Under the pieces are notes generated by a model. It was not told the DNA's origin. It searched no databases and worked only from the letters and a program-made list of their open reading frames with translations. A stretch of DNA of 64,000 nt from Bradyrhizobium sp. CB1717. Lineage in GTDB: Bacteria; Pseudomonadota; Alphaproteobacteria; Rhizobiales; Xanthobacteraceae. Position numbers and translations under genes: made by a program. Below, piece after piece: positions 26,405 through 48,448 of the stretch. The number at the start of each line of letters is the position of its first letter. The stretch's first letter is position 1. The stretch is from positions 6,231,001 to 6,295,000 of the forward strand of contig NZ_CP121666.1 in the NCBI RefSeq assembly GCF_029714325.1. Reading direction: 5' to 3'.

Positions 26405-27655
26405 ATGTCGAAATGCAGTATCGGACTGCTCGCGCTGAGCAGCCTGTTTCTTTCAGGCGCAGCGATCGCCCAGGAAAAGATCAAGGTGGGCGTGACCGCG
26501 ACCCTCGAAGGCACCTACACGGTGCTCGGCGAGGACGGCATGCGCGGCCACCAGACGGCGCTTAATGTCCTTGGCAAGAAGATCGGTGACAAGGAGCTCG
26601 AATTCATCGTCGCCTCGACCGACGCGACGCCGGACTCCGCGGTGCGTGCAGTCCGCAAGCTGATCGAGCAGGACAAGGTGCAGATCCTGCTGTCGCCGCT
26701 CTCCGGCGACGAGGGCATCGCGGTGAAGAACTTCGCGAAGACCCACCCCGAGCTGACCTTCATCAACGCGGCATCCGGCGCGCAGGAAACCACCTATGTC
26801 GACCCTGCCCCGAACTTCTTCCGCTACAACATGGACGGCGCGCAGTGGCAGGTGGGCCTCGGCAAATACGCCTATGACGAGAAGAAGTATCGCAAGATCG
26901 CGACCGTCGGCGAGGACTATTCCTTCATCTACACCCAGGTGTTCGGGCTGGTGCTCGAGTTCTGCGGCGCCGGCGGACAGGTCACCAACAGGCAATGGGT
27001 GCCGCTCGGCACCAAGGACTTCGCCTCGGTCATCGCCGCCCTGCCCGACGACGTCGATGCCATCTATCTCGGACTTGGCGGCGCTGATGCCGTCAACTTC
27101 CTCAACCAGTATCAGCAGGCCGGCGGCAAGGCGCATCTGATGGGCGGTTCCATCATGATCGACCAGACCATCCTGTCGTCGAAGGGGAACGCGAAGAACG
27201 CCCTGATCGGCACCATCGCGGCGAGCGGCCAGGCCGACACCTGGGAGGACCCGGGCTGGCAAAAGTTCGTGAAGGCCTATCAGGACGCCTTCCCGCCCAA
27301 CAAGCGCTTCCCGAGCCCCTCGCTCCTGGCCACCAACTACTATGACTCGACCATGGCCCTGATCCTCGCGCTGCGTCAGGTCAACGGCGATCTCTCCAAC
27401 AACCAGGGGAAATTCAGAGAAGCGTTGGCCAAGATCGAGCTCGACGCGCCCAACGGCAAGATCAAGCTCGACTCCAATCGCCAGGCGATCGGCACCAATT
27501 TCGTCACCGAGGTCGTCGATGACGGCAAGGGCGCGCTGTTCAGCAAGGTGGTGAAGGTGATCCCGAATGTGAACCAGACGCTCGGCTATGATCCGGCGGT
27601 GTTCTCGAAGATCGGACTGCCGAGCCGCACCGTGCCGGAATGTAAGAAGTACTGA
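26405..27655 (+). CDS. Liv-type ABC substrate-binding protein
   Basis: 416 residues, Sec signal peptide ending SGAAIAQE, then IKVGVTATLEGTYTVLGEDG, the type 1 periplasmic-binding fold of LivJ-like proteins. IATVGEDYSFIYTQVFGLVL and DAIYLGLGGADAVNFLNQYQ are the usual second-domain strands. Family members bind amino acids, urea or aromatic acids, so substrate cannot be inferred from fold. It is the first gene of the plus-strand cluster and is separated from its permease genes by an AraC-type regulator. Ribosome site GGGAGGAG 4 nt upstream. Confidence 0.9.
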   Translation: MSKCSIGLLALSSLFLSGAAIAQEKIKVGVTATLEGTYTVLGEDGMRGHQTALNVLGKKIGDKELEFIVASTDATPDSAVRAVRKLIEQDKVQILLSPLSGDEGIAVKNFAKTHPELTFINAASGAQETTYVDPAPNFFRYNMDGAQWQVGLGKYAYDEKKYRKIATVGEDYSFIYTQVFGLVLEFCGAGGQVTNRQWVPLGTKDFASVIAALPDDVDAIYLGLGGADAVNFLNQYQQAGGKAHLMGGSIMIDQTILSSKGNAKNALIGTIAASGQADTWEDPGWQKFVKAYQDAFPPNKRFPSPSLLATNYYDSTMALILALRQVNGDLSNNQGKFREALAKIELDAPNGKIKLDSNRQAIGTNFVTEVVDDGKGALFSKVVKVIPNVNQTLGYDPAVFSKIGLPSRTVPECKKY

Positions 27656-27777
27656 CGCATCACATCGGCAGGACGCAACCGGGGAGCGACTCGCTGACGC
27701 GGTCGCTCACCGCTCTTGCAATCTCGGCGCCTTTGTTGAACGCTGGCTGAAAAGAAGAACATTCGGGAGGGGAAGGC

Positions 27778-28605
27778 ATGAGCCGTGCGCTCGCCGTCTT
27801 CCACGGCCGCTTCGGCCGGGCGACGGTTTATCAATTGAACCGCCCTTTCAATATCCACGCCCATCGCGAAGGTCATCTGATCTTCCATGTCGGCGGCGTG
27901 CCGGCATGCATCGATGTCTCCGACGGACACTATGATCTCACCGAGTCCTCCGTCGTCGCCGTCAATCCTTGGGAGCCGCACAACTTCCTGCCGACCGACC
28001 TCGATGGCGGCGCCATCTTCTTCGTGCTCTACGTCAATGCCGAATGGTTTGCGCCCGACGCTTCGGGCACCGACCGGCTGCGGTTCGGCCGCACCCAGTT
28101 CAGGCGCACGCCTGCACTCGACAAGCACATCAGGCGGACCGCCGCGCTCGTGTGCGGCGCACCATCCCTCTCCAGCCTCGATTCCGAGCTGAGGCGGTTG
28201 ATCGACATCTGCTACGACGAAAGCTGGCAGCAGGCCGAGATCGCGCGCGATCCACGAGCAAACGGCGCCGTCACCGATTTTCGCGTGCGCAAATGTATCA
28301 AGATGATGACCGAAAGCCCCGGCGCCGAGATCGAGCTCGACACCATTGCGCGCGAATCCGGCCTGTCGCGGCCGCACTTCTACCGGCTGTTCCGCGTTCA
28401 GACCGGCGTCACGCCGAACCTCTATCTCAACACGTTGATCATGGAACAGGCGCTCGAAGCACTGGTGGCCAGCGAGACGCCGATCGCCGACATCGGCTTC
28501 GATCTCGGTTTCTCTTCGCAGAGCGGTTTCACCCGCTTCTTCGCCGCCAATGTGGGGATGGCTCCGACCGATTATCGCCGCGCAGCCAAGGTTTTGCGCG
28601 CCTGA
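27778..28605 (+). CDS. AraC-family transcriptional regulator
   Basis: 275 residues with a cupin-like N-terminal sensing domain (FNIHAHREGHLIFHVGG, VAVNPWEPHNF) and a C-terminal AraC double helix-turn-helix: IELDTIARESGLSRPHFYRL then IADIGFDLGFSSQSGFTRFF. GGGAGGGG precedes the ATG. It sits between the binding protein and the permease genes and is the likely activator of this cluster in response to its substrate; the ligand is unknown. Confidence 0.9.
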   Translation: MSRALAVFHGRFGRATVYQLNRPFNIHAHREGHLIFHVGGVPACIDVSDGHYDLTESSVVAVNPWEPHNFLPTDLDGGAIFFVLYVNAEWFAPDASGTDRLRFGRTQFRRTPALDKHIRRTAALVCGAPSLSSLDSELRRLIDICYDESWQQAEIARDPRANGAVTDFRVRKCIKMMTESPGAEIELDTIARESGLSRPHFYRLFRVQTGVTPNLYLNTLIMEQALEALVASETPIADIGFDLGFSSQSGFTRFFAANVGMAPTDYRRAAKVLRA

Positions 28606-28797: not shown

Positions 28798-29808
28798 ATG
28801 AGCCGTTTCATCGAACGCCATCCCGCCTGGGCGCTGACCACGATCATTGCCATTGCCGTCTTACTCTGGCTGATCTTCTCGGTCTGGCCCCCGGGTCTCG
28901 AAGAGGCGATCGGCCGCAAACGCGTCTTCCTCAATGCCGTCTTCAACGGCATCACGCTCGGGGGCCTCTACTTTCTCGTCGCCAGTGGCTTCACGCTGAT
29001 CTTCGGCCTGATGCGCAACGTCAATCTCGCCCATGGCTCGCTCTATCTGTTCGGCGGGTATGTCGGCTACGCCATCAGCACATCGACCGGCTCCTGGATC
29101 CTCAGCTTCATCATCGCCTTCATCCTGACGGCCCTGGTCGGCGTGCTGCTCCAGGTGATCGTGTTCCGGCGCATGGAGGGCCAGGACCTCAGGCAGACCA
29201 TGGTGACGATCGGACTGTCGATCGTGTTTGCCGATCTGATGCTCTGGGCCTGCGGCGGCGATTTCTACCAGATCCAGACCCCGAGCTGGTTGATTGGGCC
29301 CGTGGACCTGCCGCTGATCACGGCGGTGAAGTCCTCGGGCGAGCCGGTCTATCTCAGATATCCGATGGTCCGGCTCGTGATCTTCGCCGCTTCCGTGATC
29401 ATCGGCGTCGCGATGTGGCTCGCGCTCAACCGTACCCGGATCGGCATGATCATTCGCGCCGGCGTCGATGATCGCGACATCCTTGCCGCAACCGGCGTGC
29501 GCATCCAGCTCGTCTTCGTGCTGGTGTTCGCGTTCGGCGCCGGGCTTGCCGGCATCGCCGGCGTGGTCGGCGGTACCTTCCAGTCCTTGTCGCCGGGCGA
29601 GGACATCCGCTTCCTGCTTGCTTCGCTGGTGGTCGTGATCGTCGGCGGCATGGGCTCGATCCCCGGTGCGGCGCTCGGCGCGCTGATCATCGGCCTCGCC
29701 GAGCAGCTCGGCTCGGTCTACATCCCGACCTACGCCATCGTCGTGACCTTCCTGATCATGGTGCTGGTGCTGGCGATCCGGCCGCAAGGCCTGTTGGCGA
29801 GGCGCTGA
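28798..29808 (+). CDS. Liv-type ABC permease, LivH-like
   Basis: 336 residues with 8-9 hydrophobic segments. The region VFLNAVFNGITLGGLYFLVA and LIFGLMRNVNLAHGSLYLFG is the LivH signature (FGhhxhhNhAHGxhhhhGAY). C-terminal GGMGSIPGAALGALIIGLAE is also typical. An extra N-terminal membrane segment (residues 10-32) precedes the conserved core. It forms the translocation pathway with the following LivM-like subunit, one nucleotide downstream. Confidence 0.92.
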   Translation: MSRFIERHPAWALTTIIAIAVLLWLIFSVWPPGLEEAIGRKRVFLNAVFNGITLGGLYFLVASGFTLIFGLMRNVNLAHGSLYLFGGYVGYAISTSTGSWILSFIIAFILTALVGVLLQVIVFRRMEGQDLRQTMVTIGLSIVFADLMLWACGGDFYQIQTPSWLIGPVDLPLITAVKSSGEPVYLRYPMVRLVIFAASVIIGVAMWLALNRTRIGMIIRAGVDDRDILAATGVRIQLVFVLVFAFGAGLAGIAGVVGGTFQSLSPGEDIRFLLASLVVVIVGGMGSIPGAALGALIIGLAEQLGSVYIPTYAIVVTFLIMVLVLAIRPQGLLARR

Positions 29809-29809
29809 G

Positions 29810-30889
29810 ATGTCGCTCGCTCACGATGCCCGCGTCCCCGTTCGTCCCGCCCTGGCGCAGCAGGGCGCGCGGACATGGCCGGAGATCAACAATCCCGCCG
29901 CCTGGGTCGTCGCGGCCATCCTTCTGATCATGCCGCTGATCGCCAACGGCTTCTTTCTGATCGAGATCTTCGCGACCACGCTGATCCTCGGCATCATTGC
30001 GCTGAGCCTGATGTTCCTCGCGGGCTATGGCGGCATGGTCAGCCTGATGCAGCTCACTATCGCGGGCTTCTCGGCTTACATGGTCGCCGTGTTCGGCGTC
30101 AGCGGCAACGCCAATATCAGTCTCGGCTGGCCGTGGTGGCTCGCCGTCCCGATGGCGCTGGCGCTGGCGACCGCCTTCGGCACGCTCGGCGGCGCGCTCG
30201 CGGTGCGCACCGAAGGCATCTACACCATCATGATCACACTCGCGATTGGAGCTGCCTTCTACTATTTCACCAATCAGAACTGGGCGATCTTCAACGGCCA
30301 TACCGGCATCAACACCGTGGCGACGCCTCACTTCTGGGGCGTGAACTGGCGCGCGGACATACCGTTCTACTATGTCGTCCTCGCGGTCGCCGCGCTCTGC
30401 TATTTCGCGGTCGAATATATCTCGCGCGCCCCCTTCGGCCTCGCGCTTCAGGGCGTGCGCGACAATCCGCGGCGCATGGCGGCGCTGGGCTTCAACGTCA
30501 ACGCCCATCGGATCGCCGCCTACGCTTTCGCCTCCTTCGTGGCCGCGCTCGCCGGCGTCCTCCAGGTCTGGAACTACCGCCAGATCTCGCCGGGCTCGGT
30601 GAGCGTCGGCGCCTGCATCGACGTGCTGATCATCGCCGTGGTCGGTGGCATCACCCGCCCGATCGGCCCGTTCATCGGCGCGCTGATCTTCGTGCTGCTG
30701 CGCACCTTCGCGCTCGACTTCCTGGTCAGGCTCGGGCTCGACGGCAACCGCTTCCGCCTGCTGATCGGGCTCGGCTTCCTCGCCATCGTGTTCTGGTCCT
30801 CGGACGGCGTCATCGGCCTGTGGCAGCGCTGGCGCCAGAGTCAACGCCACGACGCCCGTCGCTCCGGCGGAGGGCACCGCCATGGATAG
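29810..30889 (+). CDS. Liv-type ABC permease, LivM-like
   Basis: 359 residues. A basic N-terminal tail of about 30 residues, then 9-10 hydrophobic segments. GYGGMVSLMQLTIAGFSAYM is the LivM signature (GxGGxxSLGhxxFxGhGAY) and RMAALGFNVNAHRIAAYAFA is the cytoplasmic coupling region. It overlaps the ATPase gene that follows by 8 nt. Its partner is the LivH-like protein immediately upstream. Confidence 0.92.
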   Translation: MSLAHDARVPVRPALAQQGARTWPEINNPAAWVVAAILLIMPLIANGFFLIEIFATTLILGIIALSLMFLAGYGGMVSLMQLTIAGFSAYMVAVFGVSGNANISLGWPWWLAVPMALALATAFGTLGGALAVRTEGIYTIMITLAIGAAFYYFTNQNWAIFNGHTGINTVATPHFWGVNWRADIPFYYVVLAVAALCYFAVEYISRAPFGLALQGVRDNPRRMAALGFNVNAHRIAAYAFASFVAALAGVLQVWNYRQISPGSVSVGACIDVLIIAVVGGITRPIGPFIGALIFVLLRTFALDFLVRLGLDGNRFRLLIGLGFLAIVFWSSDGVIGLWQRWRQSQRHDARRSGGGHRHG

Positions 30890-31664
30890 CGTCGCTCACC
30901 GTCTTTCAGCCGTCGGCGCCGGTGCCGCTCTGGAGCTGCGCGGGGTAACGCGGCTGTTCGGCGCGCTCGCCGCGCTGACCGACGTCACCATCACAGTGCG
31001 TCCGGGCGAACGGCGCGCCGTGCTCGGCTCCAACGGCGCCGGCAAGACCACGCTGTTCAACTGCATCACCGGCGACTTCCCCCCCTCCTCCGGCACCATC
31101 CGCTTCTTCGGCGAGGACGTCACCCACTTCCCGCCCTATGAACGCATCCGCCGCGGGCTGCGTCGGACCTATCAGATCTCGGCGCTGTTCCCCGGCCTCA
31201 CCGTGCAGGACAACGTCTATCTCGCCTGTCGCGGCGTCTCGCGCGGACGTTTCTCGTTCCTGCGCCCAGGGCAGAACGACGCCCTGATGCATGCAGCGGA
31301 CAATCTGGTCCAGGCCGTGCATCTGTCCGCCGTGAAGGACCAGCACGTCGCCGAGCTCGCGCACGGCCAGCAGCGCCAGCTCGAGATCGCACTCGCGCTG
31401 GCCGGCGCCCCGCGCTTCGTCCTGTTCGATGAGCCGGCCGCGGGCCTGTCGCCGACCGAACGGGCCGAGCTGATCGAGATCCTGACCTCCCTGCCCGCGC
31501 ATATCGGTTACATCATCATCGAGCACGACATGGACGTGGCGCTGCGCGTCGTCGAGAGCGTCACGATGATGCACAACGGGCGCGTCTTCAAGGAGGGCCT
31601 GCCGCAGGAGATCCAGTCCGATCCCGAGGTGCAGGAGCTCTATCTCGGAGGCGGCCATGAATGA
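30882..31664 (+). CDS. Liv-type ABC ATPase, LivG-like
   Basis: 260 residues, standard LivG length. Walker [16 protein letters not shown]-loop region [16 protein letters not shown], a divergent signature [15 protein letters not shown] in place of LSGGQ, Walker [14 protein letters not shown] and the switch histidine in IIIEHDMDV. The signature variant LAHGQQ is common in LivG proteins. Overlaps the fused ATPase gene by 8 nt (ATG inside its last codons). Confidence 0.93.
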
Positions 31665-33867
31665 GGCCCGCCGCTCTTCCCCTGCGCTCGAGGTCCGCGG
31701 CCTCGACGTCTACTACGGTCACTCCCACGCGCTGCAAGGCGTCGATCTCACGCTGGACAGCGGCGTATTCTCCGTCGTCGGCCGCAACGGCATGGGCAAG
31801 ACCACCCTGTGCAAGGCGATCATGGGGCTCGTTGGCGTGAGCGGCGGATCGATCCGCGTGCGCGGCGAGGATGTCACGCGGCGGCCGTCGGCCCAGATCG
31901 CCCGGCTCGGCGTCGGCTATGTGCCGCAAGGTCGCCGTCTCTGGCGCTCGCTCAGCGTCGACGAGCATCTGCAGCTTGCCGGCGGCATGCGGCAAGGGGC
32001 CTGGACCGTCGAGCGCATCTACGACACCTTCCCGCGCCTCGCCGAACGCAAGGGCCACGGCGGCGGCCAGCTCTCCGGCGGCGAGCAGCAGATGCTGGCG
32101 ATCTCGCGCGCGCTGCTCACCAATCCGCATCTCTTGATCATGGACGAGCCGACCGAAGGCCTCGCGCCCGTCATCGTCGCGCAGGTCGAGGAGATGCTGC
32201 TGCGGCTCGGCGAGGACGGCGACATGTCCGTGCTCGTGATCGAGCAGAACATCGGCGTTGCCACCGCGATCTCGCGCAATGTCGCGATCATGGTCAACGG
32301 CCGCGTCAACCGCATCATCGACTCCGGCCGCCTCGCCGCGGACCGCGAGCTGCAGCAGCGCCTGCTCGGCGTCGGGCTTCACGCCGAGCTCGAGCCCGAT
32401 AGCGACATCTCCGAGGCCGCCAGCGGCGCGAAGCCAGCGCCGGCGGCGCGCCCGGGCGGACCGATCCGCATCTACGTTTCCAACCCGACGCTCCCGACGC
32501 GATGGTCGCAGCCGGTGCCGATCGCCCGCATCGAGGCGGCGGCCCGCACGGTCTCGACGCACGTCGCGCGGCTGGAGGAGACGACGCGGCGCAGGCGCGA
32601 GCCGGTGGCGGCGCAGACCGCCGGCCCGCCCATCGTCCTGGTCGTCGGCACGCTCGATACCAAGGGAACCGAGTTGCGCTTCATCCGCGACATCATTGCA
32701 GGAACCGGTCTCCGCACCCGGCTGGTCGACGTCTCGACAAGCGGCAAGCATTCGAGCTGCGATGTCTCCGCGCAGGAGATCGCGCTGAACCACGGCCGCG
32801 GCGGTGCGGCCGTGTTCGGCCCCGATCGCGGCGCTGCCGTGACCGCGATGGCCGATGCGTTCGCCAATTGGCTGGGGCGCCAGGGCAATGTTGCCGGCGT
32901 GATCTCGGCCGGCGGCTCGGGCGCGGCGTCGCTGGTTGCGCCGGGCATGCGCACCCTTCCCGTCGGCGTGCCCAAGTTGATCATCTCCTCCGTCGCCTCG
33001 GGCGATGTCGGGCCCTATGTCGGCCCCGCCGACATCACGATGATGTACTCGGTCACGGACGTGCAGGGGCTGAACTCGATCTCGCGCGCGGTGCTGGCTA
33101 ACGGCGCCAACGCGCTCGCCGGAATGGCCAAGGCGCGCCTTGATCCGCATGCCGCGGCGGCGCGCGAGGCCGGCGGCCTGCCCTCGGTCGGCATCACCAT
33201 GTTCGGCGTCACCACGCCTGCCGTGCAGAAGATCGCGGCCGAGTTGCACGACGATTTCGAATGCCTGGTCTTTCACGCCACCGGCGTCGGTGGCCGTTCC
33301 ATGGAAAAGCTCGTGGAGTCCGGCCAGCTCGCCGGCGTCATCGACCTCACCACGACCGAAATCTGCGACCTGCTCATGGGCGGCGTGTTTCCGGCGACCG
33401 AGGATCGTTTTGGCGCGATCATCCGCAGACGGCTGCCCTATGTCGGCTCGGTCGGTGCGCTCGACATGGTCAATTTCGGCGCGCCCGACACCATCCCCGA
33501 GCGCTATCGCGGCCGCAAGTTCCACGTCCACAATCCGCAGGTCACCCTGATGCGGACGACGACTGAGGAGAACGAGCGCATGGGCCGCTGGATCGCCGAT
33601 CGGCTCAACCAGATGGATGGCCCTGTGCGCTTCTTCCTGCCCGAGGGCGGCGTCTCCGCGCTCGATGCGCGAGGCCAGCCGTTCTGGGACCCGGACGCCG
33701 ATGCCGCGCTGTTCCGCGCGCTGGAGCGCAATGTCCGGCAGACCAGCAACCGCCAGCTCATTCGCACGCCCAAGAACATCAACGATCCCGACTTCGCCGC
33801 CGCCATCGTCAGCGCGTTCCGAACCCTGTTCGGCCGCACCGGCGCGCGGCGGAGACTAGCGAGGTGA
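31657..33867 (+). CDS. fusion of LivF-like ABC ATPase with UPF0261 (Tm-1-like ATP-binding) domain
   Basis: 736 residues. Residues 1-245 are a complete LivF-type ATPase: Walker [10 protein letters not shown] (42-50), signature LSGGEQQML (139-147), Walker B LLIMDEP (159-165), switch region [10 protein letters not shown] variable Ala/Pro/Arg-rich linker (245-322) leads into a complete UPF0261 domain (about 325-736): [77 protein letters not shown]. No frameshift or internal start suggests two proteins. UPF0261 is the N-terminal domain of tomato Tm-1 and its homologues; its bacterial function is unknown to me. The TIM-barrel partner of Tm-1 is encoded 3 bp downstream. Confidence 0.9.
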
Positions 33868-39349: not shown

Positions 39350-39826
39350 ATGTCGAAGATCCCCCTGCAATTTCGTCACAATGGCCGCGACGTCGCGATC
39401 TTCGTCGACGGCGGCACCAACCTGCTGGTGGCACTGCGCGAACTGATCGGCGACATGACCCCGAAATTCGGCTGCGGCCAGGGCGGCTGCGGCACCTGCA
39501 GCGTGCTGATCGACGGCGAGCTGCACCTGTCCTGCCTGACACTGGCCGAAACGGTCGCGGGCCGCTCGGTCGAGACGCTCGACGGCATGAAGCAGGGCCC
39601 GAACCTGCATCCGCTGCAGCGCGCCTTTGCCGACCATTTCGCCGCCCAGTGCGGCTATTGCACGCCGGGCATGCTGATGGCCGCCAAGGCGCTGCTCGAC
39701 CGCAACCCCTCACCGAGCCGCGACGAAGTCGTCGAGGCCATCTCCGGCAACATCTGCCGCTGCACCGGCTACGAGCCGATCATCAATGCCATCCTCGCCG
39801 CCGCCGGCGGCCGGGTCAGCGCGTAA
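39350..39826 (+). CDS. molybdenum hydroxylase 2Fe-2S (small) subunit, CoxS type
   Basis: 158 residues with both cluster-binding sets: FGCGQGGCGTCSVLIDG (plant ferredoxin-type [2Fe-2S]) and CGYCTPGMLMAAKALLDRNP with GNICRCTGY (the second, helical cluster). Length and spacing are normal for xanthine-dehydrogenase-family small subunits. It carries electrons from the molybdopterin site to FAD. Starts 6 nt after the FAD subunit gene. Confidence 0.95.
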   Translation: MSKIPLQFRHNGRDVAIFVDGGTNLLVALRELIGDMTPKFGCGQGGCGTCSVLIDGELHLSCLTLAETVAGRSVETLDGMKQGPNLHPLQRAFADHFAAQCGYCTPGMLMAAKALLDRNPSPSRDEVVEAISGNICRCTGYEPIINAILAAAGGRVSA

Positions 39827-39838: not shown

Positions 39839-41431
39839 ATGCTGGAACTACGCAAGGACATCTTCGCCGACGAGCGCGACGATAATCTGAAGGAGATCGG
39901 CAAGGGCACCCAGCGCCAGGACATGCTCGGCCATGTCACAGGCACATCCAGCTATTTCAACGACCATAAGCTTCAGGGCATGCTGCATCTGAAAGTCGTG
40001 CGCTCGACGCAGGCGCATGCAAGGCTCCGCCGCATCGACACCGCGGAGGCGGAGCGCTCGGCCGGCGTCCGCCGCATCATCCGCGGCGCCGACGTGCCGC
40101 GCAACCTCAACACGCTGCTCAGCCTCATCAACTTCGGCAAGGACGACGAGCCCTCGCTGGCAGTCGACAAGGTGCGTTACAAGGGCGAGCCGATCGTCGC
40201 AGTCGTCGCCGACAGCGAGCGCGAGGCCTTCGAGGCGATCGCAAAGGTGCGGATCGACTACGAGCCGCTGCCGACCGTGTTCGACGTCGAGGACGCGCTG
40301 AAGCCCGGCGCGCCCGTGGTGAACGAGACCTATCCGAAGAACACATTCACCTATCACGACGTCTACGATCACCAGCGCCTGCGCTTCGGCGACGCCGATG
40401 CGGCACTTGCAACCGCCGACCACGTGCTCGAGCAGCGCTACCAGATGTCGCCGATCGAGCACGCGCCGACCGAGACAAACGGGGCGATCGCAGCTCCCGA
40501 CACCAACGGCCGCTACGTCGTCTACACCTCGACCCAGGCCTTGTTCTTCTCGGTCGACACCTGCGCCAAGATCCTGGACGTGGCCTCCAACACCTTCCAC
40601 TTCATCGGAGGAACCGTCGGCGGCGGGTTCGGCGGCAAGGTGGACACTCTGACCGAGCCGCTCGCGATCCTCGGCGCAATGCTGACCGGGCGGCCCGTGC
40701 GCTACGTGTTCGGGCGCGAGGAGGAGATGCAGTATGGCCCGCCGCGTGGCGCCGAGCGCATCTACATCAAGGATGGCGTGATGCGCGACGGCCGCATCGT
40801 CGCGCGCAAGATCCGTGCCTATTTCGACAGCGGCGCCTATACGCGGCTGTCCAGCTACGCCGCGGTGAAATGCGCCGCACATCTGCCGGGCCCCTACACC
40901 ATCCCGAACGTCTATGGCGACGTCTATTGCGTCTTCACCAACCGGACGCCTGCCACCGCCATGCGAGGCTTCGGCGTCACCGCGATGGATTTTGCCATCG
41001 AGTGCCAGATGGACAAGCTGGCCAACCTCGTCGGCATGGACCCGATGGAGTTCCGCATCCTCAACGCCTATCGCGATGGCGACATGAAGGCGCACCGGCG
41101 CGAGGCCAAGAACACCGCGCTGATCGAGTGCGTGCAGGTTGCGGCCGAAAAAGCCAAATGGCCGATCCGCGAGGAGTTCAAGCGCGCCTCCTCGCGCAAG
41201 GATGGGGGCGGCAGCCGCGCCGTGATCCCGCCGACGCCGACGGTGTCGCGCAGCCGGCCGGCCGCGCCAGCGCAGCAGCGCACCAGCTATGACCGGCTTC
41301 CGCCCACTGTCACCCGCGAACCGCCGCGCGAGCCGCCACCGCCCGCACCGCCGCCCCCCTCGCCGCGGCCAGCGGCGCCCTCGCATGGCGCGACCCGTTT
41401 CTCCTCTGTCTTCGGCACCAGGAGGCGCTAG
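39839..41431 (+). CDS. molybdenum hydroxylase large subunit, N-terminal part (split gene)
   Basis: 530 residues. Residues 15-455 correspond to the N-terminal half of a xanthine-dehydrogenase-family large subunit: GKGTQRQDMLGHVTGTSSYF, the GGTVGGGFGGK molybdopterin motif (258-267) and NRTPATAMRGFG (368-379). From about 460 the protein switches to a proline/arginine-rich tail (TVTREPPREPPPPAP region) and stops at TAG 41429-41431. The remaining half, including the catalytic glutamate, is the next gene in the same frame, separated only by this stop codon. The two chains probably associate into one active subunit. Confidence 0.9.
   Translation: MLELRKDIFADERDDNLKEIGKGTQRQDMLGHVTGTSSYFNDHKLQGMLHLKVVRSTQAHARLRRIDTAEAERSAGVRRIIRGADVPRNLNTLLSLINFGKDDEPSLAVDKVRYKGEPIVAVVADSEREAFEAIAKVRIDYEPLPTVFDVEDALKPGAPVVNETYPKNTFTYHDVYDHQRLRFGDADAALATADHVLEQRYQMSPIEHAPTETNGAIAAPDTNGRYVVYTSTQALFFSVDTCAKILDVASNTFHFIGGTVGGGFGGKVDTLTEPLAILGAMLTGRPVRYVFGREEEMQYGPPRGAERIYIKDGVMRDGRIVARKIRAYFDSGAYTRLSSYAAVKCAAHLPGPYTIPNVYGDVYCVFTNRTPATAMRGFGVTAMDFAIECQMDKLANLVGMDPMEFRILNAYRDGDMKAHRREAKNTALIECVQVAAEKAKWPIREEFKRASSRKDGGGSRAVIPPTPTVSRSRPAAPAQQRTSYDRLPPTVTREPPREPPPPAPPPPSPRPAAPSHGATRFSSVFGTRRR
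41420..41425 (+). promoter_or_regulatory. strong Shine-Dalgarno inside the end of the large-subunit N-half gene
   Basis: AGGAGG lies exactly 6 nt before the ATG at 41432 and encodes the final TRRR residues before the TAG. It supports independent initiation of the second half rather than a sequencing error or recent nonsense mutation. Confidence 0.75.
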
Positions 41432-42454
41432 ATGACCAGGCATCGCGGACGCGGCATGGCGTCGATCAACTATCCCATCGGCATGAATCTCGGCGGCGAT
41501 CCGAGCCAGGCGCTGGTGCATTCCAACCCGAGCGGCAAGTTCACCGTGGCGCTGTCGTCGATCGACTTGGGACAGGGCATGAAATCGGTGACGCGGCAGA
41601 TCTGCGCGGAGACACTGGGCGTACCAGTCGCGGACGTCTATGTCGACACGGCGGACTCCGACACCGGTCCGCACTGCATGGGCTCGTTCGCCTCGCGCGG
41701 CACTCACCGCGTCGGCAACGCCGTGATGGCCGCCGCCCACGAGGCGCGCGGCGTGATGATGGAGGCGGCGGCCGAGGAGCTCGAGGTCAACGCCGCCGAT
41801 CTCGAAACCGACGGCCGGGGCAGCATCCATGTCAAGGGCGCGCCGCACCGTTCGATCTCGACCAAGGACGTCGCGATCGCGGCGCAATTCAAGCAGGGCA
41901 AGACCATCTCCGGCCGCGGCATTTTCCTCGTGCCGCTCTCCGACGTCGATCCGGAGACTGGCGAGATGTCGCCGGCGACCTGCTATGCCCATGCCTGTCT
42001 CGTCGCCGAGGTCGAGGTCGACGACGAGACCGGCGAGGTTGCGATGGTCCGGATGGACTCCGCCTATGAGCTCGGCCGCGCGCTCAATCCGCGCCTGGTC
42101 GAGCAGCAGCTCGTCGGCGGTGCCTGGATGGGCGTCAGCCACGCACTCTACGAGACGCCCGAGCCTTATTACCCGGACCCGGCTCACGGTCCCCGCGACT
42201 TCGTCGAATATCTGATGCCCGGTCCCGGCGACATCTGTCCGCACGATATCGCCGTGCTGGAACGGCCTGCCCCTGACGGTCCGTTCGGCGCCAAGGGCCC
42301 CGGCGAGATGTGCGCCAATCCCGTGCTGCCCGCCGTTGCCAACGCGATCTTCAATGCCGTCGGCGTGCGCATCGACGATCTCCCCATCACGCCGGAAAAG
42401 GTGCTGCGGGCAATCAAGAGCCAGGGCGGTGCACGGCCGCAGGCGCGGCGCTGA
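41432..42454 (+). CDS. molybdenum hydroxylase large subunit, C-terminal part (split gene)
   Basis: 340 residues starting at the ATG directly after the previous stop. It has RGRGMASINYPIGMNLGGDP, IDLGQGMKSVTRQICAETLG (the GQG molybdopterin motif), SFASRGTHRVGNAVMAAAHE, and GAKGPGEMCANPVLPAVANA with the catalytic glutamate at about residue 292, corresponding to the GxGE base of xanthine dehydrogenase. These are exactly the elements missing from the preceding protein. The C-terminal end is complete (ITPEKVLRAIKSQ). Substrate unknown. Confidence 0.9.
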   Translation: MTRHRGRGMASINYPIGMNLGGDPSQALVHSNPSGKFTVALSSIDLGQGMKSVTRQICAETLGVPVADVYVDTADSDTGPHCMGSFASRGTHRVGNAVMAAAHEARGVMMEAAAEELEVNAADLETDGRGSIHVKGAPHRSISTKDVAIAAQFKQGKTISGRGIFLVPLSDVDPETGEMSPATCYAHACLVAEVEVDDETGEVAMVRMDSAYELGRALNPRLVEQQLVGGAWMGVSHALYETPEPYYPDPAHGPRDFVEYLMPGPGDICPHDIAVLERPAPDGPFGAKGPGEMCANPVLPAVANAIFNAVGVRIDDLPITPEKVLRAIKSQGGARPQARR

Positions 42455-42464: not shown

Positions 42465-43346
42465 GTGGCCGTTCGCAGCAACATCGTCGGCATCGACAGC
42501 CCGGAAGCGCTGGAGAAGGCGCTTCGAGCTGCCTACTACCTCGCCGACGAGGGCCTTGCGACTGCCGCCTATCTGGGGCTCGCACTCGGTAAGCCGCTGT
42601 TGCTCGAGGGCGCACCCGGCGTCGGCAAGACGGAAGCCGCAAAGGCCATTGCCGCCGTGCTCGGCCGCCGTCTCATCCGCCTGCAATGCTACGAGGGCAT
42701 CGACTCCTCCGCTGCGCTCTATGAATGGAACTATCCGCGCCAGATGCTCGCGATCCGGCAGGCCGGCGACGACAGCATCGACATCTACGGTGAAACCTTC
42801 CTGATCGAGCGGCCGATGTTGGCCGCCCTTCGCGCGCCTGATTCAACCGTGCTGCTGATCGACGAAATCGACCGGGCCGACCAGGAGTTCGAGGCATTTC
42901 TGCTCGAATTCCTCTCCGATTTCCAGATATCCATCCCCGAGCGCGGCACGGTCCGCGCGGCCGAACGTCCCGTGGTGGTGCTGACCTCGAACCGGACGCG
43001 CGATCTGCACGAAGCCTTGCGCCGCCGCTGCGTTTATCACTGGATCGACTATCCCACCGCCGAGCGGGAGGCGCGGATCATCATGATGCGCGCGTCCAGC
43101 GTCGCCGAAGCCACGGCCCGCGCCGTCGTCGCGGCCGTCGAGAGGTTGCGGCGCGAACCGCTGAGCAAGGCGCCTGGCATCGCCGAGGCCGTCGACTGGG
43201 CGGAGGCGGCGACGCTGCTCAACAAGGGCGGCGCGCGCTGGCCCGACGCCTTCAAGCGCTCGATCGGCGTGGCGCTGAAGGACGAGGAGGACCTGCACTT
43301 CATCGCCCCCCGGCTCGATGCCATGCTCGCGGAGGCGACCGCATGA
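42465..43346 (+). CDS. MoxR-type AAA+ ATPase, CoxD-like
   Basis: 293 residues from a GTG at 42465, chosen because GAGGGA precedes it and the previous stop is 10 nt upstream. Walker A GAPGVGKT (49-56), Walker B VLLIDEID (129-136), sensor-1 region VVVLTSNRTRDLHEALRRRC. MoxR ATPases of the CoxD group remodel molybdenum hydroxylases and help insert or mature the cofactor site, working with a VWA protein; the VWA gene follows with an ATGA overlap. This supports an enzyme that needs active-site maturation. Confidence 0.92.
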   Translation: MAVRSNIVGIDSPEALEKALRAAYYLADEGLATAAYLGLALGKPLLLEGAPGVGKTEAAKAIAAVLGRRLIRLQCYEGIDSSAALYEWNYPRQMLAIRQAGDDSIDIYGETFLIERPMLAALRAPDSTVLLIDEIDRADQEFEAFLLEFLSDFQISIPERGTVRAAERPVVVLTSNRTRDLHEALRRRCVYHWIDYPTAEREARIIMMRASSVAEATARAVVAAVERLRREPLSKAPGIAEAVDWAEAATLLNKGGARWPDAFKRSIGVALKDEEDLHFIAPRLDAMLAEATA

Positions 43347-44464
43347 GCACCGAGCTGCTACTGCCGCACGCTGCCCGCATCTTCATTTCCTTCGTTGCGC
43401 TACTGCGCGTCAACGGTTTCGCCGTTGCACCGGAGCAGACCACCGCCTTTCTCGCCGCGATCGCGTTGCTCGGCCCGCGTGACCTCGACGACATCAGGCA
43501 ATCTGCGCTCGCCACCCTCGCCCCGCCGCCCGAGCGCCGCACCACCTTCGACCGGCTGTTCGACCTGCATTTCCGCGGCAGCGAGGCCATCGAGCACGCC
43601 GGCGACGGCGAGGACGACGAGACCGTTCGTCTCCAGGAGGAAGGCCGCGGCGACGAGGAGCCCTTGCACTCCGATGAGACCAATGAATCGGGCCTGACGG
43701 CGACGCGCGCCGAGGCACTGGTCGAGCGTCGCTTCGGCCAGCTCTCCACGACCGATGCGCTCCGCCGTCTGGCGCGCGAGGCCCCGCGGCGCCTGCCACG
43801 GCGGCGCGGGCACCGCCGTATGCGCGCACGCCGCGGCCCCTTCGCCGATCTCCGCCGCACCTTGCGCGACAGCGTCCGCAGCGACGGCGAGATCCTGCGG
43901 GTCGGCCACATGAAGCGGCGCCAGCGCCCGCGCAAGATGCTGATGCTGATCGACGTCTCAGGTTCGATGAAGAGCCGGACCGAGGAGAACATGAAGCTTG
44001 CCCATGCGCTGGTGCACGCCGCGCCCAATGTCGAGGTCTTCACCTTCGGCACACGGCTGACCCGTGTCACCCGCGCGCTGCGGCTGAAGCGGCGCGAGCA
44101 GGCACTGAGCGCGGCCGCACATCTCGTGAGCGACTGGGACGGCGGCACCCGCATCGGCGACGCGCTGCAAGCCTTCCTCGCGGTGCCGCGGTTCGGCGGC
44201 TATGCCCGCGGCGCCGCCGTGGTCATCGTGTCGGATGGGCTCGAGCGCGGCGAGCCCGACGCGCTTCGCGATGCCGTTGCGAAATTGTCGCGGCGGGCCT
44301 GGCGCCTGAGCTGGCTGACGCCGCTCGCAACAGGACCGGGCTTCCGCCCGCAGACCGCGGCGCTCGTCGCGATTGAACGCTCCGTCGACGATCTCGTGGA
44401 CGGCGGATCGAGTGCCTCGATCGTCGCCCATGTACTGGCGCTGGGACGAAGGAGAGCTGCGTGA
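43343..44464 (+). CDS. VWA-domain protein, CoxE-like
   Basis: 373 residues, ATG overlapping the MoxR stop. An N-terminal helical region (FVALLRVNGFAVAPEQTTAF, RDLDDIRQSALATL) is typical for CoxE; a strongly charged middle (EGRGDEEPLHSDETNESG, then an Arg-rich stretch 148-165) leads to a von Willebrand A domain with MIDAS DVSGS (204-208) and a threonine/aspartate further on (DGGTRIGDAL, VSDGLERGEPDAL). Known partners of MoxR/CoxD in activating molybdenum hydroxylases. The next gene starts with GTG overlapping its stop. Confidence 0.92.
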   Translation: MSTELLLPHAARIFISFVALLRVNGFAVAPEQTTAFLAAIALLGPRDLDDIRQSALATLAPPPERRTTFDRLFDLHFRGSEAIEHAGDGEDDETVRLQEEGRGDEEPLHSDETNESGLTATRAEALVERRFGQLSTTDALRRLAREAPRRLPRRRGHRRMRARRGPFADLRRTLRDSVRSDGEILRVGHMKRRQRPRKMLMLIDVSGSMKSRTEENMKLAHALVHAAPNVEVFTFGTRLTRVTRALRLKRREQALSAAAHLVSDWDGGTRIGDALQAFLAVPRFGGYARGAAVVIVSDGLERGEPDALRDAVAKLSRRAWRLSWLTPLATGPGFRPQTAALVAIERSVDDLVDGGSSASIVAHVLALGRRRAA

Positions 44465-45345
44465 ACGGTATTGTCGACGGCCATCATCACATCTGGCGGC
44501 AGGCCGACCTGCCCTGGCTGACCGGCCCCATGCAGCCCCGCATCTTCGGACCGTACGAGCCGATCCGGCGCGATTATCCGATCGAGGAATATCTCGCCGA
44601 TCTCAGGGGCGCCGGCGTCACCCGCTCCGTCTATGTGCAGACCAATTGGGCGCCCGAGCACTTCGAGGAGGAAGCTGCCTGGGTCCAGCGCACAGCCGAC
44701 GAGCACGGCTGGCCGCATGCCATCGTCGCCTACGCCAATTTCGCGGCCGACGACGTGCGCCCGCAGCTCGATCGCCTCAAAGGCTATCCGCTGCTCCGCG
44801 GGGTGCGCATGCAACTGCACTGGCACGAGAACCCGCTGTACCGCTTCGCCGCTCGTTCGGATCTCTGCGCCGAGCCCGTGATCCGTCGCAACGTCGCGCG
44901 TCTGGCCGATTACGGCTGGAGCTTCGACCTCCAGGTCTTCACACCGCAGATGCCCGATGCCGCGCTGCTGGCGGAGTCCTGCCCCAAGGTGACGTTCATC
45001 CTCCAGCATGCCGGCATGCTGGAAGACCTCTCGCCGGCGGGCCGAGCGGCCTGGCGTGCGGGCATAGCCCGCCTCGCGACCTGCCCGAACGTGGTCTCAA
45101 AACTGTCCGGGCTGGGCACCTTCATCCATCGCAATGACCCCGCGCATATCGCGGCTGTGCTTACGGACACCGTCGCGATTTTCGGTGCCGAGCGTTGCCT
45201 GTTCGGCTCGAATTTTCCGATCGAGAAATTGTGGACCAGCTATCCCGAGCTCGTCAGTACCTTTCGCGCAGCTGCCGCCCCGTTCAGTGCGGAGCAGCAG
45301 GACGCGATCTTCAGGGCGACGGCGACGCGCGTCTATCGGCTTTGA
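44461..45345 (+). CDS. amidohydrolase family protein (2-pyrone/fuconolactone hydrolase type)
   Basis: 294 residues from GTG 44461 (GTGA overlap). N-terminal VDGHHHIWRQADLPWL holds the paired histidines of the amidohydrolase_2 family, RGVRMQLHWHENPLY follows, LQHAGML and GSNFPIEKLW come near the end in the expected order. Members hydrolyse lactones (2-pyrone-4,6-dicarboxylate, L-fuconolactone) or decarboxylate aromatic acids. Placed after oxidation genes and before two other lactonase-type genes, hydrolysis of a ring-opened or lactone intermediate is likely, but the substrate is not identified. Confidence 0.85.
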   Translation: MNGIVDGHHHIWRQADLPWLTGPMQPRIFGPYEPIRRDYPIEEYLADLRGAGVTRSVYVQTNWAPEHFEEEAAWVQRTADEHGWPHAIVAYANFAADDVRPQLDRLKGYPLLRGVRMQLHWHENPLYRFAARSDLCAEPVIRRNVARLADYGWSFDLQVFTPQMPDAALLAESCPKVTFILQHAGMLEDLSPAGRAAWRAGIARLATCPNVVSKLSGLGTFIHRNDPAHIAAVLTDTVAIFGAERCLFGSNFPIEKLWTSYPELVSTFRAAAAPFSAEQQDAIFRATATRVYRL

Positions 45346-45375
45346 CAGACAAGAAACGAGACAGGAGGGCAACGT

Positions 45376-46224
45376 ATGGCGCTGGAGATCAAGATCCTGG
45401 ACTATGGCGATATCGAGTTGGAATCGAGCTTCCTGGTGCTCGGCCGCGACTGCGGCCGCACCCGCCGCGTCCTCACCCTCGGCTTCCTGATCCTCGGCGG
45501 CCCCTATCCGGTCGTGGTCGACACCGGCTACCGCTCCAACCAGATCATGGAGACGCTGGGCATGCGAGGGCTGCAGTACCATGAGCACATGATCGAGAAC
45601 CAGCTCGCGCGTCACGGCGTGCGCATGGGCGACGTGCGCTTCGTCTGCCACACCCATCTGCACATCGACCATGCCGGCAAGGACGACCTGTTCCCGATGA
45701 ACACGACCGTCGTCGTCAACCGCAAGGAGCTCGAATACTCCGTCTCCGGCCTGATGCATCCGCAATATCCGGCGCCCGACATCAAGCACCTGATCGACCG
45801 CCTGCACACCAAGAGCGCGCTTCGCTTCCTCGACCTCGAAATCACCGGCCCGATCGAGCTGATGCCTGGCGTCTATTGCGATGCCGCCAACGCCCACACC
45901 GAGGGATCGATGAACATCATCGTCCACACCGCCGACGGCATCGCGACCATCTGCGGCGACGTCATCTACGACTTCAATGACCAGATCGTCACGCCCTTCC
46001 ACGAGATCCACGATTGGGAGCCGCGCACCACCGGCAACCACGGCACCAGCAAACGTGCAGAGAAGGCGGCGATCAAGAAGCTGCTGAGCAGTTCGCGCTA
46101 CCTGCTTCCCGTGCATGACCGTCCGGCCAAGATCGAAGGCGGCAATGTCGTCGGTCGCCTGCACGACCAGGTCCCCGGACCGGTCGTGCAGTCCCTGCCC
46201 CAGCGGAACTGGTTTCCGGCTTGA
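45376..46224 (+). CDS. metallo-beta-lactamase fold hydrolase, N-acyl homoserine lactonase family
   Basis: 282 residues. The zinc motif is HTHLHIDHAGKDD (HxHxDH, near residue 94), with YCDAANAHTEGSMNIIVHTA giving the third-histidine region, CGDVIYDF the bridging aspartate and a late histidine in LLPVHDRPA. The overall length and the N-terminal GGPYPVVVDTGYRSNQ match AHL-lactonase-like proteins. In this catabolic context a lactone ring other than quorum signals is at least as likely. AGGAGGG lies upstream of the ATG. Confidence 0.88.
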   Translation: MALEIKILDYGDIELESSFLVLGRDCGRTRRVLTLGFLILGGPYPVVVDTGYRSNQIMETLGMRGLQYHEHMIENQLARHGVRMGDVRFVCHTHLHIDHAGKDDLFPMNTTVVVNRKELEYSVSGLMHPQYPAPDIKHLIDRLHTKSALRFLDLEITGPIELMPGVYCDAANAHTEGSMNIIVHTADGIATICGDVIYDFNDQIVTPFHEIHDWEPRTTGNHGTSKRAEKAAIKKLLSSSRYLLPVHDRPAKIEGGNVVGRLHDQVPGPVVQSLPQRNWFPA

Positions 46225-46243
46225 TGTTGTCGAGGATCGACCG

Positions 46244-47818
46244 ATGACGCACGTCACTCTGCGAAGCGAGTTCGAGAACCTGATCGATCCCTATGCGCCG
46301 GTCGCGCAGATCGGCACCGGTTTCGACTTCACGGAAGGGCCGATCTGGCATCCGGTCGATCATTACCTGCTGTTCTCGGACATGCCCGGCGACGTGCGCC
46401 GACGCTGGGATGCGCGGCGCGGCGTCGTCGAGGTCAAGCGCCCGTCGAACAAATGCAACGGCATGACCTATGACGCCGAGCTCAACCTGATCGTCTGCGA
46501 GCACGCGACCTCATCGCTCGTCCGCGAGCGTCCGGACGGACGGCGCGAGGTGCTCGCCTCGCATTTTAGCGGCCAGGAGCTCAACAGCCCGAACGATGTC
46601 TGCGTGCACTCATCGGGTGCGATCTATTTCTCGGACCCATGGTATGGACGGATGCCGGTCTATGGCGTCGAGCGGCCGCGCCAGCTCGGCTTTCAGGGCG
46701 TCTATCGCGTCATGCCCGGCGGCGAGCCGAAGCTCGTGGTCGAGCGAAACCTGTTCGACCAGCCGAACGGTCTGTGCTTCTCGCCCGACGAAAAGCTGCT
46801 CTATGTCAACGACACCGTGCAGGCGCTGATCCGCGTTTTCGATGTCAATGCCGACGGCACGCTCTCGAACGCGCGCGTGTTTGCGAGCGGCATCAGGTCC
46901 GAGCTCGAGTCCGGCCTGCCCGACGGCATGAAATGCGATCAGCACGGCAATGTCTGGGTCACCGCGCCCGGCGGCGTCTGGGTCTATTCGCCGCGCGGCG
47001 AGCTGCTCGGCAAGGTCCGCGTGCCGGAGCTGGTCGCCAACCTCGCCTGGGGCGGTCCGGATTTCCGCACGCTCTATCTCACCTCGACCCATTCGGTGTA
47101 CGCAATTCAGACCAAGGTCGGTCCGCGTCACGAGCCCTATATGAGCGGCCGACGCGCCGGCGGCGGCGCAGACCCGAGCTCGTCACCGGCCTCGCCTGTT
47201 CTCACCGAGGGCGAGATGCAGCTCGATCCGCAGCGCTGCGCCATGATCATCCAGGATCTCCAGAACGACGTCATCATGGACGGCGGCGCCTTCGCCGAGT
47301 CGGGTGCGCCGGGTCATGCAAAGCAACAGCATGTCGTCGAGAATGTCCGGCGGCTGGCGGATGTCGCGCGCGCGCGGGGCGTCGCCATCATCCATGTCTG
47401 GTTCGTCGTCGAACCGGGCGCACCCGGCGTTACACTCAACGCCCCTTTGTTCGAAGGCCTCGTCGACAGCAAGGCGATGGTACGCGGAAGCTGGGGCGCA
47501 GCGCCCGTTTCCGGCCTGGAGCCGCGGCCCGGCGATTTCGTCGTCGAGAAGATGCGGATGAGTGCCTGGGAAGGCACGCGGCTGGAGACGATCCTGAAAG
47601 CCACCGGCCGCGACATGATCATCAATACCGGCGCCTGGACCAACATGTCGGTCGAGCACACGGCGCGGACCGGTGCCGACAAGGGCTATTTCATGATCGT
47701 GCCCGAGGACTGCTGCTCGACCATGAATGCCGACTGGCACAACGCCTCGATCAATTTTGCCATGCAGAACGTCGCGGTCGTGACCAGGGCCGATACCGTG
47801 ATCAGAGCGCTGGGATGA
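46244..47818 (+). CDS. fusion of SMP-30/gluconolactonase and isochorismatase-like domains
   Basis: 524 residues from the ATG at 46244. Residues 1-300 form a six-bladed SMP-30/gluconolaconase propeller (FDFTEGPIWHPVDHYLLFSD with the metal-binding Glu31; QELNSPNDVCVH; LFDQPNGLCFSPDEKLLYVN; SGLPDGMKCDQHGNVWVT). A Gly/Ser/Pro linker (304-322) joins an isochorismatase-like cysteine hydrolase (325-524): IIQDLQND with Asp338, EKMRMSAW with Lys436, and TGAWTNMSVEHTA where family members have cysteine but this protein has Ser469. The domains would hydrolyse a lactone and an amide or vinyl ether, if active. The serine makes the second activity doubtful or altered. Confidence 0.88.
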   Translation: MTHVTLRSEFENLIDPYAPVAQIGTGFDFTEGPIWHPVDHYLLFSDMPGDVRRRWDARRGVVEVKRPSNKCNGMTYDAELNLIVCEHATSSLVRERPDGRREVLASHFSGQELNSPNDVCVHSSGAIYFSDPWYGRMPVYGVERPRQLGFQGVYRVMPGGEPKLVVERNLFDQPNGLCFSPDEKLLYVNDTVQALIRVFDVNADGTLSNARVFASGIRSELESGLPDGMKCDQHGNVWVTAPGGVWVYSPRGELLGKVRVPELVANLAWGGPDFRTLYLTSTHSVYAIQTKVGPRHEPYMSGRRAGGGADPSSSPASPVLTEGEMQLDPQRCAMIIQDLQNDVIMDGGAFAESGAPGHAKQQHVVENVRRLADVARARGVAIIHVWFVVEPGAPGVTLNAPLFEGLVDSKAMVRGSWGAAPVSGLEPRPGDFVVEKMRMSAWEGTRLETILKATGRDMIINTGAWTNMSVEHTARTGADKGYFMIVPEDCCSTMNADWHNASINFAMQNVAVVTRADTVIRALG

Positions 47819-47821
47819 GCC

Positions 47822-48448
47822 GTGGCAAAGCTCCTGCATCTGTCCTGCTCGCCCCGCGCCGAGTCCGAGTCGAATGCCGGCGCACGCGTCTTTCTTGACG
47901 GCTTCCGCCTGGCCCGGCCGGATTGGGACGTCGATATCGTGGACATCTGGCGTGAGCGGATGCCGGAGTTCGCGGGCCCTATCGTCGATGCCAAATATGC
48001 ACGCATGAAGGCTGAGGCCTTCACCGATGCGCAACGCGACAGCTTTGCCGAGGCCGAGCGCATGGCGCTGCGCTTTTCGCTCGCCGATCGGGTGCTGATC
48101 TCGACCCCGATGTGGAACTTCGGCATCCCCTACAAGCTCAAGCAGTGGTTCGACGTCATCGTCCAGCCTGGGCTCACCTTCCGGTTCGATCCGGCGCAGG
48201 GGTATCTCCCGCTGCTGAAGGATCGACCGACGCTGGTGATCATCGCCAGCGGCAGCGACTTCGCCACCGGCATGAACCGCGGCCGCATCGACATGGCAAC
48301 GCCATACCTGCGGGAGATCCTGCGCTTCATCGGAATCGGCGATGTCCGTTTCGTGCTGATCGGTCCAACCACAGGACCGCAGCAGCCGATCGATTCTGCC
48401 CGTGAAAGGGCCTATCAGCGCCTTGCTGCAATGGCCCCGACCTTCTAG
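47822..48448 (+). CDS. FMN-dependent NADH-azoreductase / quinone reductase family
   Basis: 208 residues, GTG start three nucleotides after the previous stop. KLLHLSCSPRAESESNAGAR is the flavodoxin-like FMN phosphate loop, STPMWNFGIPYKLKQWFDVI is the AzoR motif near residue 98, and ASGSDFATGMNRGRIDM follows. Such enzymes reduce quinones or azo/nitro groups by two electrons at the expense of NAD(P)H and may keep quinone products of the pathway reduced. Last gene of the plus-strand cluster; 23 bp separate it from the convergent livF-like gene. Confidence 0.9.
   Translation: MAKLLHLSCSPRAESESNAGARVFLDGFRLARPDWDVDIVDIWRERMPEFAGPIVDAKYARMKAEAFTDAQRDSFAEAERMALRFSLADRVLISTPMWNFGIPYKLKQWFDVIVQPGLTFRFDPAQGYLPLLKDRPTLVIIASGSDFATGMNRGRIDMATPYLREILRFIGIGDVRFVLIGPTTGPQQPIDSARERAYQRLAAMAPTF

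Follow-up and report, generated by a model that had tools for sequence, protein, structure and literature searches.

Parts of a gene cluster in Bradyrhizobium sp. CB1717 resemble several described systems, namely aerobic carbon monoxide (CO) dehydrogenase, nicotinate dehydrogenase, the tomato protein Tm-1 and the cages formed by flotillins and related SPFH proteins. We analysed this cluster in a window of 64,000 nucleotides (contig NZ_CP121666.1, positions 6231001-6295000 of a 9.23-Mb single-contig genome). An active-site loop of the AYRCSFR type is the mark of aerobic CO dehydrogenase. Nicotinate dehydrogenase takes nicotinate as substrate and carries labile selenium at its molybdenum; the source organism of its solved structure 3hrd is one which we take to be Eubacterium barkeri. 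Proteins of the families UPF0261 and PF09370 occur widely and are known chiefly from Tm-1, a virus-resistance protein of tomato, and beyond one acetovanillone-binding structure we found no bacterial role for them in the literature searched. According to one report, the human flotillin complex is a helical barrel, right-handed and 22 nm in height, and the wall helices of the SPFH proteins surveyed span 44-189 residues (PMC11260169). Structures of flotillin and stomatin cages have been solved (PMC11260169, PMC12407830); SPFH cages enclose membrane proteins, a stomatin cage holding a urea transporter (PMC12407830).

Here, we show that the genes in question form one conserved, co-inherited unit, a catabolic module in which known families are brought together in a new combination that is undescribed as far as the literature searched extends; no published description of the cluster was found there, with most subscription journals falling outside the coverage. 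Tentatively, and with less than even confidence, we propose that the module takes up one class of hydroxylated (hetero)aromatic compounds, activates them and oxidises them at the inner membrane.

Results

Between positions 26405 and 48448, the window holds 20 plus-strand genes, whose open frames are all present in the expected order. The original prediction for this DNA, 18 packed plus-strand genes, agrees with these frames and with the gap figures: the 18 genes from 28798 to 48448 are separated by -8 to +30 bases (computed with provisional starts for CoxM and MoxR), and the count of 20 includes the solute-binding and AraC genes, which precede them and are followed by gaps of 122 and 192 bases. 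The predicted order and families likewise stood, the latter backed by Pfam and NCBIfam, and corrections were needed for the starts of CoxM (ATG at 38525) and MoxR (probably GTG at 42465) and for the SMP-30 and isochorismatase parts, which form a single protein. The genes are as follows.

26405..27655, plus strand: periplasmic solute-binding protein of the LIV-type ABC importer, 416 residues (PF13458, E 9.9e-49)
27778..28605, plus strand: AraC-family regulator, 275 residues (PF12833, E 1.1e-21)
28798..29808, plus strand: LivH-type permease (PF02653, E 7e-34)
29810..30889, plus strand: LivM-type permease (PF02653, E 8.6e-34)
30882..31664, plus strand: LivG-type ATPase (PF00005, E 2.7e-29; PF12399)
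31657..33867, plus strand: LivF-type ATPase fused to a UPF0261 domain (Tm-1 N-terminal type), 736 residues
33871..34704, plus strand: TIM-barrel protein, other half of plant Tm-1 (PF09370, E 9.2e-131)
34731..37628, plus strand: long flotillin, 965 residues, with SPFH domain, hendecad coil of about 600 residues and flotillin C-terminal domain (PF01145, PF15975)
37639..38076, plus strand: SRPBCC protein 1 (PF10604, E 2.1e-29)
38079..38522, plus strand: SRPBCC protein 2 (PF10604, E 1e-16)
38525..39343, plus strand: flavin adenine dinucleotide (FAD) subunit of the molybdenum hydroxylase, CoxM type (PF00941, PF03450)
39350..39826, plus strand: 2x[2Fe-2S] subunit, CoxS type (PF01799, PF00111)
39839..41431, plus strand: split molybdopterin subunit, first half, NdhL type (PF01315, PF02738; 3hrd_A, E 5.1e-59)
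41432..42454, plus strand: split molybdopterin subunit, second half, NdhM type, with the catalytic Glu (PF20256; 3hrd_B, E 2.5e-45)
42465..43346, plus strand: MoxR-type AAA+ ATPase, CoxD-like maturation (PF07728)
43343..44464, plus strand: VWA protein CoxE (PF05762, E 1.7e-47)
44461..45345, plus strand: amidohydrolase-2 (AH2) family hydrolase, lactonase-like (PF04909)
45376..46224, plus strand: metallo-beta-lactamase-fold (MBL) hydrolase, lactonase-like (PF00753)
46244..47818, plus strand: SMP-30/gluconolactonase joined to an isochorismatase-family domain with Cys replaced by Ser, 524 residues (PF08450, PF00857)
47822..48448, plus strand: flavodoxin-fold quinone/azoreductase-type protein (PF02525, E 5.6e-40)

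The top PDB match of the solute-binding protein is 4zpj (E 4.9e-33). No tRNA or Rfam element was found in the window, and the Pfam matches of the 20 cluster proteins include no shell-protein family (encapsulin, bacterial microcompartment).

A search of 296 genomes of the same family for the TIM-barrel gene gave matches in 43 of them, at 59 places, of which 30 were examined. Twenty-six of these 30 loci hold the hydroxylase-type cluster, three of them cut by contig ends (G143, G064 and G265; such labels are our own), and G165, G079, G100 and G073 do not. In the class sample, with matches in 41 of 385 genomes and 20 places examined, four loci are of the hydroxylase type, 11 carry UPF0261, TIM barrel and flotillin within a core without split CoxL, and five have UPF0261 and TIM barrel without flotillin. 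The phylum sample (matches in 27 of 398 genomes, part of these stretches examined) yielded one further hydroxylase-type genome, G977. The same-order cluster is present in five genomes of other families (the four class-level ones and G977), their sequence mostly reaching only the hydrolase genes. Gene order is concordant in 31/31 hydroxylase-type loci (the window, 26 same-family and four class-level loci); among 80 further Bradyrhizobium loci, kept from 472 matched, it agrees in 79, and the exception, L149, starts inside the cluster. The LivF-UPF0261 fusion recurs in 111 of 113 loci and is, like the long flotillin and the split CoxL, a lineage-wide trait and not an assembly error. Single genes were occasionally not detected: AH2 in the same-family loci G263 and G157, MBL in the hydroxylase-type locus G454, and the flavodoxin gene in G174, G263, G157, G051 and G220, where the downstream DNA was covered. 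The flavodoxin-fold protein is a lineage-specific addition.

As a control, nine flanking window genes were sought at >60% identity and recurred in no more than 3 (upstream) or 1 (downstream) of 22 loci. Among same-genus genomes, 22 of 27 have the TIM-barrel gene, and all five Bradyrhizobium genomes without it also proved to be without the four other parts tested, i.e. the second CoxL half (E <= 1e-60), the long flotillin, the MBL protein (E <= 1e-30) and the LivF-UPF0261 fusion (E <= 1e-60); one of the five has an ordinary flotillin in a 583-residue frame. Slow rearrangement alone was rejected as the cause of conservation, as the flanks differ and the block is absent as a whole. The condition named for refuting the original prediction, genes only rarely adjacent and not co-inherited, thus fails: in the same-family, class and phylum samples these genes are adjacent and inherited together.

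The importer, the LivF-UPF0261 fusion, the TIM-barrel protein, the flotillin and the SRPBCC pair form a nested core, which also occurs without the hydroxylase (11/20 class-level loci). In these core-only loci, SRPBCC 2 was scored by script as fused to a zinc-type dehydrogenase in nine of ten testable loci, a count that excludes G567, where the core-only locus stops at a contig edge. The tenth, G423, was scored as separate (best hit on SRPBCC 1), yet its open reading frame spans SRPBCC and dehydrogenase. By Rosetta-type reasoning, the fusion suggests that SRPBCC proteins are tied to a redox step. Downstream follow an alpha/beta hydrolase and an amidohydrolase-1 protein (10/11 each, query locus counted) and an FAA-hydrolase (7/11), and neither MoxR nor CoxE was detected in the 11 core-only loci. 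In a midpoint-rooted tree of UPF0261 and TIM-barrel sequences from 64 loci, with 12 cut or partial loci all retained, 32 hydroxylase-type loci split off among flotillin-bearing loci with support 100/99, and the flotillin-less loci G100 and G715 fall among flotillin-bearing ones. Given the core-only loci, their downstream enzymes and this tree, the same core is equipped with differing oxidative enzymes from one lineage to another. The combination of flotillin and Tm-1 halves had been predicted as a feature of the hydroxylase cluster and turned out not to be bound to the hydroxylase, as the core also serves other enzymes. A homologous-protein search informs little on distant fusions, since the best 120 of 6281 matches are all near relatives.

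Both halves of the split CoxL find their best solved-structure match in nicotinate dehydrogenase (3hrd), the first with 203.5 bits (next 166.1) and the second with 158.6 bits, followed by 4-hydroxybenzoyl-coenzyme A (CoA) reductase with 153.5. Residues 18-440 of the first half align with NdhL 6-416 of 425, and residues 3-331 of the second with NdhM 2-328 of 330. The halves are separate genes in 106/106 loci, with one fixed split point after the MoCoBD_1 domain and a stop codon 0-12 bases ahead of the second-half ATG in each. The catalytic Glu motif G[AG]KG[PI]GE is kept in 110/110 and the motif GGGFGGK in 107/107 sequences, and the AYRCSFR-type CO-dehydrogenase loop is absent in 107/107, with MRGFG in its place. 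Owing to the missing loop, CO dehydrogenase was rejected as identity, and the CoxL of the original prediction is read instead as a nicotinate-dehydrogenase-type split enzyme of the xanthine dehydrogenase family. NCBIfam matches of the hydroxylase subunits and the hydrolases are all far under the cutoffs; for the FAD subunit, glyceraldehyde dehydrogenase beta scores highest (120.7 bits, cutoff 350).

Behind its conserved domain, the first half continues into a poorly conserved linker of 59-128 residues with 13-31% proline (12 loci) and ends in a peptide that is conserved in 106/106 loci, usually RFSSVFGTRRR. The pattern is R-F-S-[ST]-[VI], two to four residues and RRR; the end reads exactly TRFSSVFGTRRR in 86 of 106 loci, and the ends that depart furthest from it are RFSSVFTRRR and RFSSISGLRRR. 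A six-frame scan of 3.58 Mb of loci (overlaps counted repeatedly) returned the motif 110 times, always at the first-half end, and it is not found in the last 45 residues of any other cluster protein. Linker and tail together look like a flexible tether that carries a docking or recognition peptide.

The long flotillin combines PF01145 (SPFH/Band_7, E 9.5e-16) and PF15975 (E 5.4e-39) with a coil between them, and reaches only 20.9 bits with the NCBIfam FloT model (cutoff 700). Self-comparison of residues 190-790 revealed a period of 44 residues, i.e. four hendecads (mean BLOSUM62 1.22 at offset 44), with more peaks at other multiples of 11. The distance between the anchors on either side of the coil is 562 residues in the cluster flotillin. 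It takes seven values in 101 hydroxylase-type loci (463, 518, 540, 562, 595, 727 and 738) and three in 11 core-only loci (152, 174 and 306), differing within each set by multiples of 11 and between the sets by an offset of 3 modulo 11; as 93 of the 101 hydroxylase-type coils share one length, few independent changes stand behind this 11-residue rule (L138, with its weak anchor, is excluded). In an ordinary flotillin that this genome also encodes (G000:C1:5136661-5138220), the anchors lie 410 residues closer together, as in the shortest core-only form, and the 44-residue repeats are absent. By arithmetic, at about 0.15 nm for each of the 410 extra residues, the coil wall would be about 60 nm longer if extended, giving a ring near 80 nm on the basis of the 22-nm human cage.

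The UPF0261 domain matches Tm-1 and Saro_1862 (PDB 9mpy, acetovanillone bound), with a shared fold. In the loci examined, a PF09370 partner gene lies within ~6 kb of UPF0261, and the TIM-barrel model matches 2p10 (66% identity), followed by the phosphoenolpyruvate mutase/isocitrate lyase superfamily. One report describes that the single-component kinase MarK begins acetovanillone catabolism in the organism of Saro_1862 (PMC13101465); Saro_1862 is probably this aromatic kinase. Other arrangements of these families were observed as well. At L178:1392-3149, beside core-only loci, a PF09370 TIM barrel is joined to an AAA lid and a Fis-type helix-turn-helix, so that the barrel is part of a regulator. 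A second UPF0261 and PF09370 pair of the same genome (L174, G000:C1:7783000-7802999; 37-38% identical) adjoins an FAD_binding_2 protein and another LIV-type importer. A further pair (L190) stands amid sugar-type ABC genes, a DJ-1/PfpI protein and a xylose-isomerase-like barrel, with no flotillin.

As for the hydrolases, the AH2 protein scores 107 bits with a fuconolactonase model (cutoff 400), and the HxHxDH motif of the MBL protein (HLHIDH) is present in 103/103 sequences. SMP-30 and isochorismatase share one frame in 102 of 103 loci. At L138 (Bradyrhizobium viridifuturi), which has a weak flotillin anchor, they stand in separate frames, possibly by decay or assembly error. The isochorismatase domain carries Ser in place of the catalytic Cys in 103/103 loci; the aligned residue is Cys in RutB 8bkd and Ser in the 8bll sequence. 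Because of this replacement, amide cleavage by the domain, one of the two routes (lactone or amide) in the original prediction, is doubtful; a vinyl-ether-directed or non-catalytic role is possible.

Outside the cluster, a second LIV-type importer and an unsplit molybdenum hydroxylase face it on the minus strand (48472-56978; families read by eye, partly backed by tblastn). They stand beside the cluster in only 1 of 22 loci (G248), and a functional link to them was set aside for this reason. The stretch 57153-62995 holds, by eye, an LLM-type flavin monooxygenase, a polysaccharide-deacetylase/PuuE-like protein, an M20-type peptidase and an oligopeptide-binding protein.

Discussion

How might these parts act together on a hydroxylated (hetero)aromatic? 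The LIV-type importer would bring the compound in, and UPF0261 on its ATPase would bind the incoming molecule and may phosphorylate it with ATP, with the PF09370 TIM-barrel protein as obligate partner of this step. The long-walled flotillin would surround importer and enzymes with a cage or patch attached to the membrane, where the hydroxylase might be located, and the proline-rich linker and C-terminal peptide would tether the hydroxylase to some partner in the module. Matured by MoxR and CoxE, the split enzyme would oxidise the ring and pass electrons via its Fe-S and FAD subunits, and the lactonase-type hydrolases would open the product. The SRPBCC pair might carry substrate or quinone for the oxidoreductase, by analogy to CoxG (PMC13240472).

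Several points weigh against this proposal. The UPF0261 domain is only 32-33% identical to Saro_1862, with a loose superposition (root-mean-square deviation 6.5), and the known role of the closer Tm-1 is virus inhibition. That Saro_1862 is MarK is something we infer; Saro_1862 goes unnamed in the literature searched. The two SRPBCC proteins fall to PF10604, and no CoxG model was listed for them at E <= 0.001, though they may still act in a CoxG-like way. With neither CoA ligase nor decarboxylase nor ring-cleaving dioxygenase seen in the cluster, the pathway is incomplete. The coil may fold back instead of extending, the tail peptide may serve maturation rather than scaffolding, and the order of assembly rests on a tree with a midpoint root only.

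The last use of the tail peptide belongs to an alternative that we consider possible, if somewhat unlikely: linker and peptide would be a recognition signal for cofactor maturation by MoxR and CoxE, and the flotillin would organise the transporter only. MoxR and CoxE indeed accompany the hydroxylase and went undetected in the 11 core-only loci, which have flotillin and no split CoxL, and a conserved terminal peptide is a common type of recognition signal for AAA+ proteins. Yet hydroxylase-type loci have the long coil as well as the peptide, which a tether to the coil would explain equally well. We judge it unlikely that the module instead serves nicotinate-type catabolism of N-heterocycles, in which the hydroxylase would oxygenate an N-heteroaromatic ring, the hydrolases would open it, and flotillin and Tm-1 halves would be accessory. 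The best matches of both molybdopterin halves speak for it, as do the second importer and ordinary molybdenum hydroxylase adjoining the cluster, though in that one locus of 22 only; for the second half, however, 4-hydroxybenzoyl-CoA reductase is nearly as good a match, the isochorismatase domain is without the amidase Cys, and the core serves non-molybdenum enzymes in other loci. Decidedly unlikely appears an aldehyde or sugar-acid route, with the molybdenum enzyme turning an aldehyde or lactol into a lactone for the lactonase-like hydrolases to open: three lactonase-like folds (AH2, MBL with HxHxDH, SMP-30) and the glyceraldehyde dehydrogenase score of the FAD subunit would suit it, but the NCBIfam matches involved are far under cutoffs and the molybdopterin halves best match nicotinate dehydrogenase, not aldehyde enzymes. 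Mere neighbourhood of functionally separate units, held together by slow rearrangement among close relatives, is largely refuted and very improbable, for although one genus supplies most loci and the solute-binding and AraC genes each have their own upstream gap, the order is kept in other genera and families at ~55-80% protein identity while the flanks differ, the cluster is present or absent as a block, and its genes overlap.

That the module takes up, activates and oxidises a hydroxylated (hetero)aromatic at the inner membrane remains the reading we favour. A bolder version, which we regard as improbable speculation, would turn the tall flotillin cage, its height set by 11-residue units, into a compartment for catabolism that lacks a classical shell: the importer would open inside it, UPF0261 would trap the aromatic by phosphorylation, the hydroxylase would be loaded via its tail peptide, and the core would be a reusable chassis for lineage-specific oxidative enzymes. 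The cluster gives UPF0261 and PF09370 a concrete, testable setting in aromatic uptake and oxidation. It is also a native case of a flotillin genetically tied to both an importer and exchangeable catabolic enzymes, which makes the question of what bacterial flotillins scaffold directly testable, and the quantised coil and the terminal peptide offer handles for structure determination and mutagenesis.

Compared with known systems, the cluster flotillin shares SPFH domain, coil and C-terminal domain with flotillin and other SPFH cages; it differs in having 44-residue repeats in a coil that exceeds that of the genome's ordinary flotillin by ~410 residues, against wall helices of 44-189 residues in the SPFH proteins surveyed. 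In tomato Tm-1, UPF0261 is combined with PF09370, whereas in the cluster it is fused to the importer ATPase and not to the TIM barrel. Saro_1862 has the same UPF0261 fold, with acetovanillone bound in its structure, at the low identity given above. The isochorismatase domain differs from RutB-type cysteine amidases by its lost catalytic Cys. With aerobic CO dehydrogenase (CoxMSLDEG), the cluster has in common the families of the M, S and L subunits and the adjoining MoxR and CoxE; it differs in its split L without the CO-dehydrogenase loop, and for its SRPBCC proteins (PF10604) no CoxG model was listed. NdhLMFS (3hrd) has a molybdopterin subunit split at the same point, with separate FAD and 2x[2Fe-2S] subunits. 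In contrast to NdhL, which ends without them, the first half in the cluster bears a proline-rich linker and a C-terminal peptide, and the neighbours of its hydroxylase are a flotillin, the two halves of Tm-1 and SRPBCC proteins.

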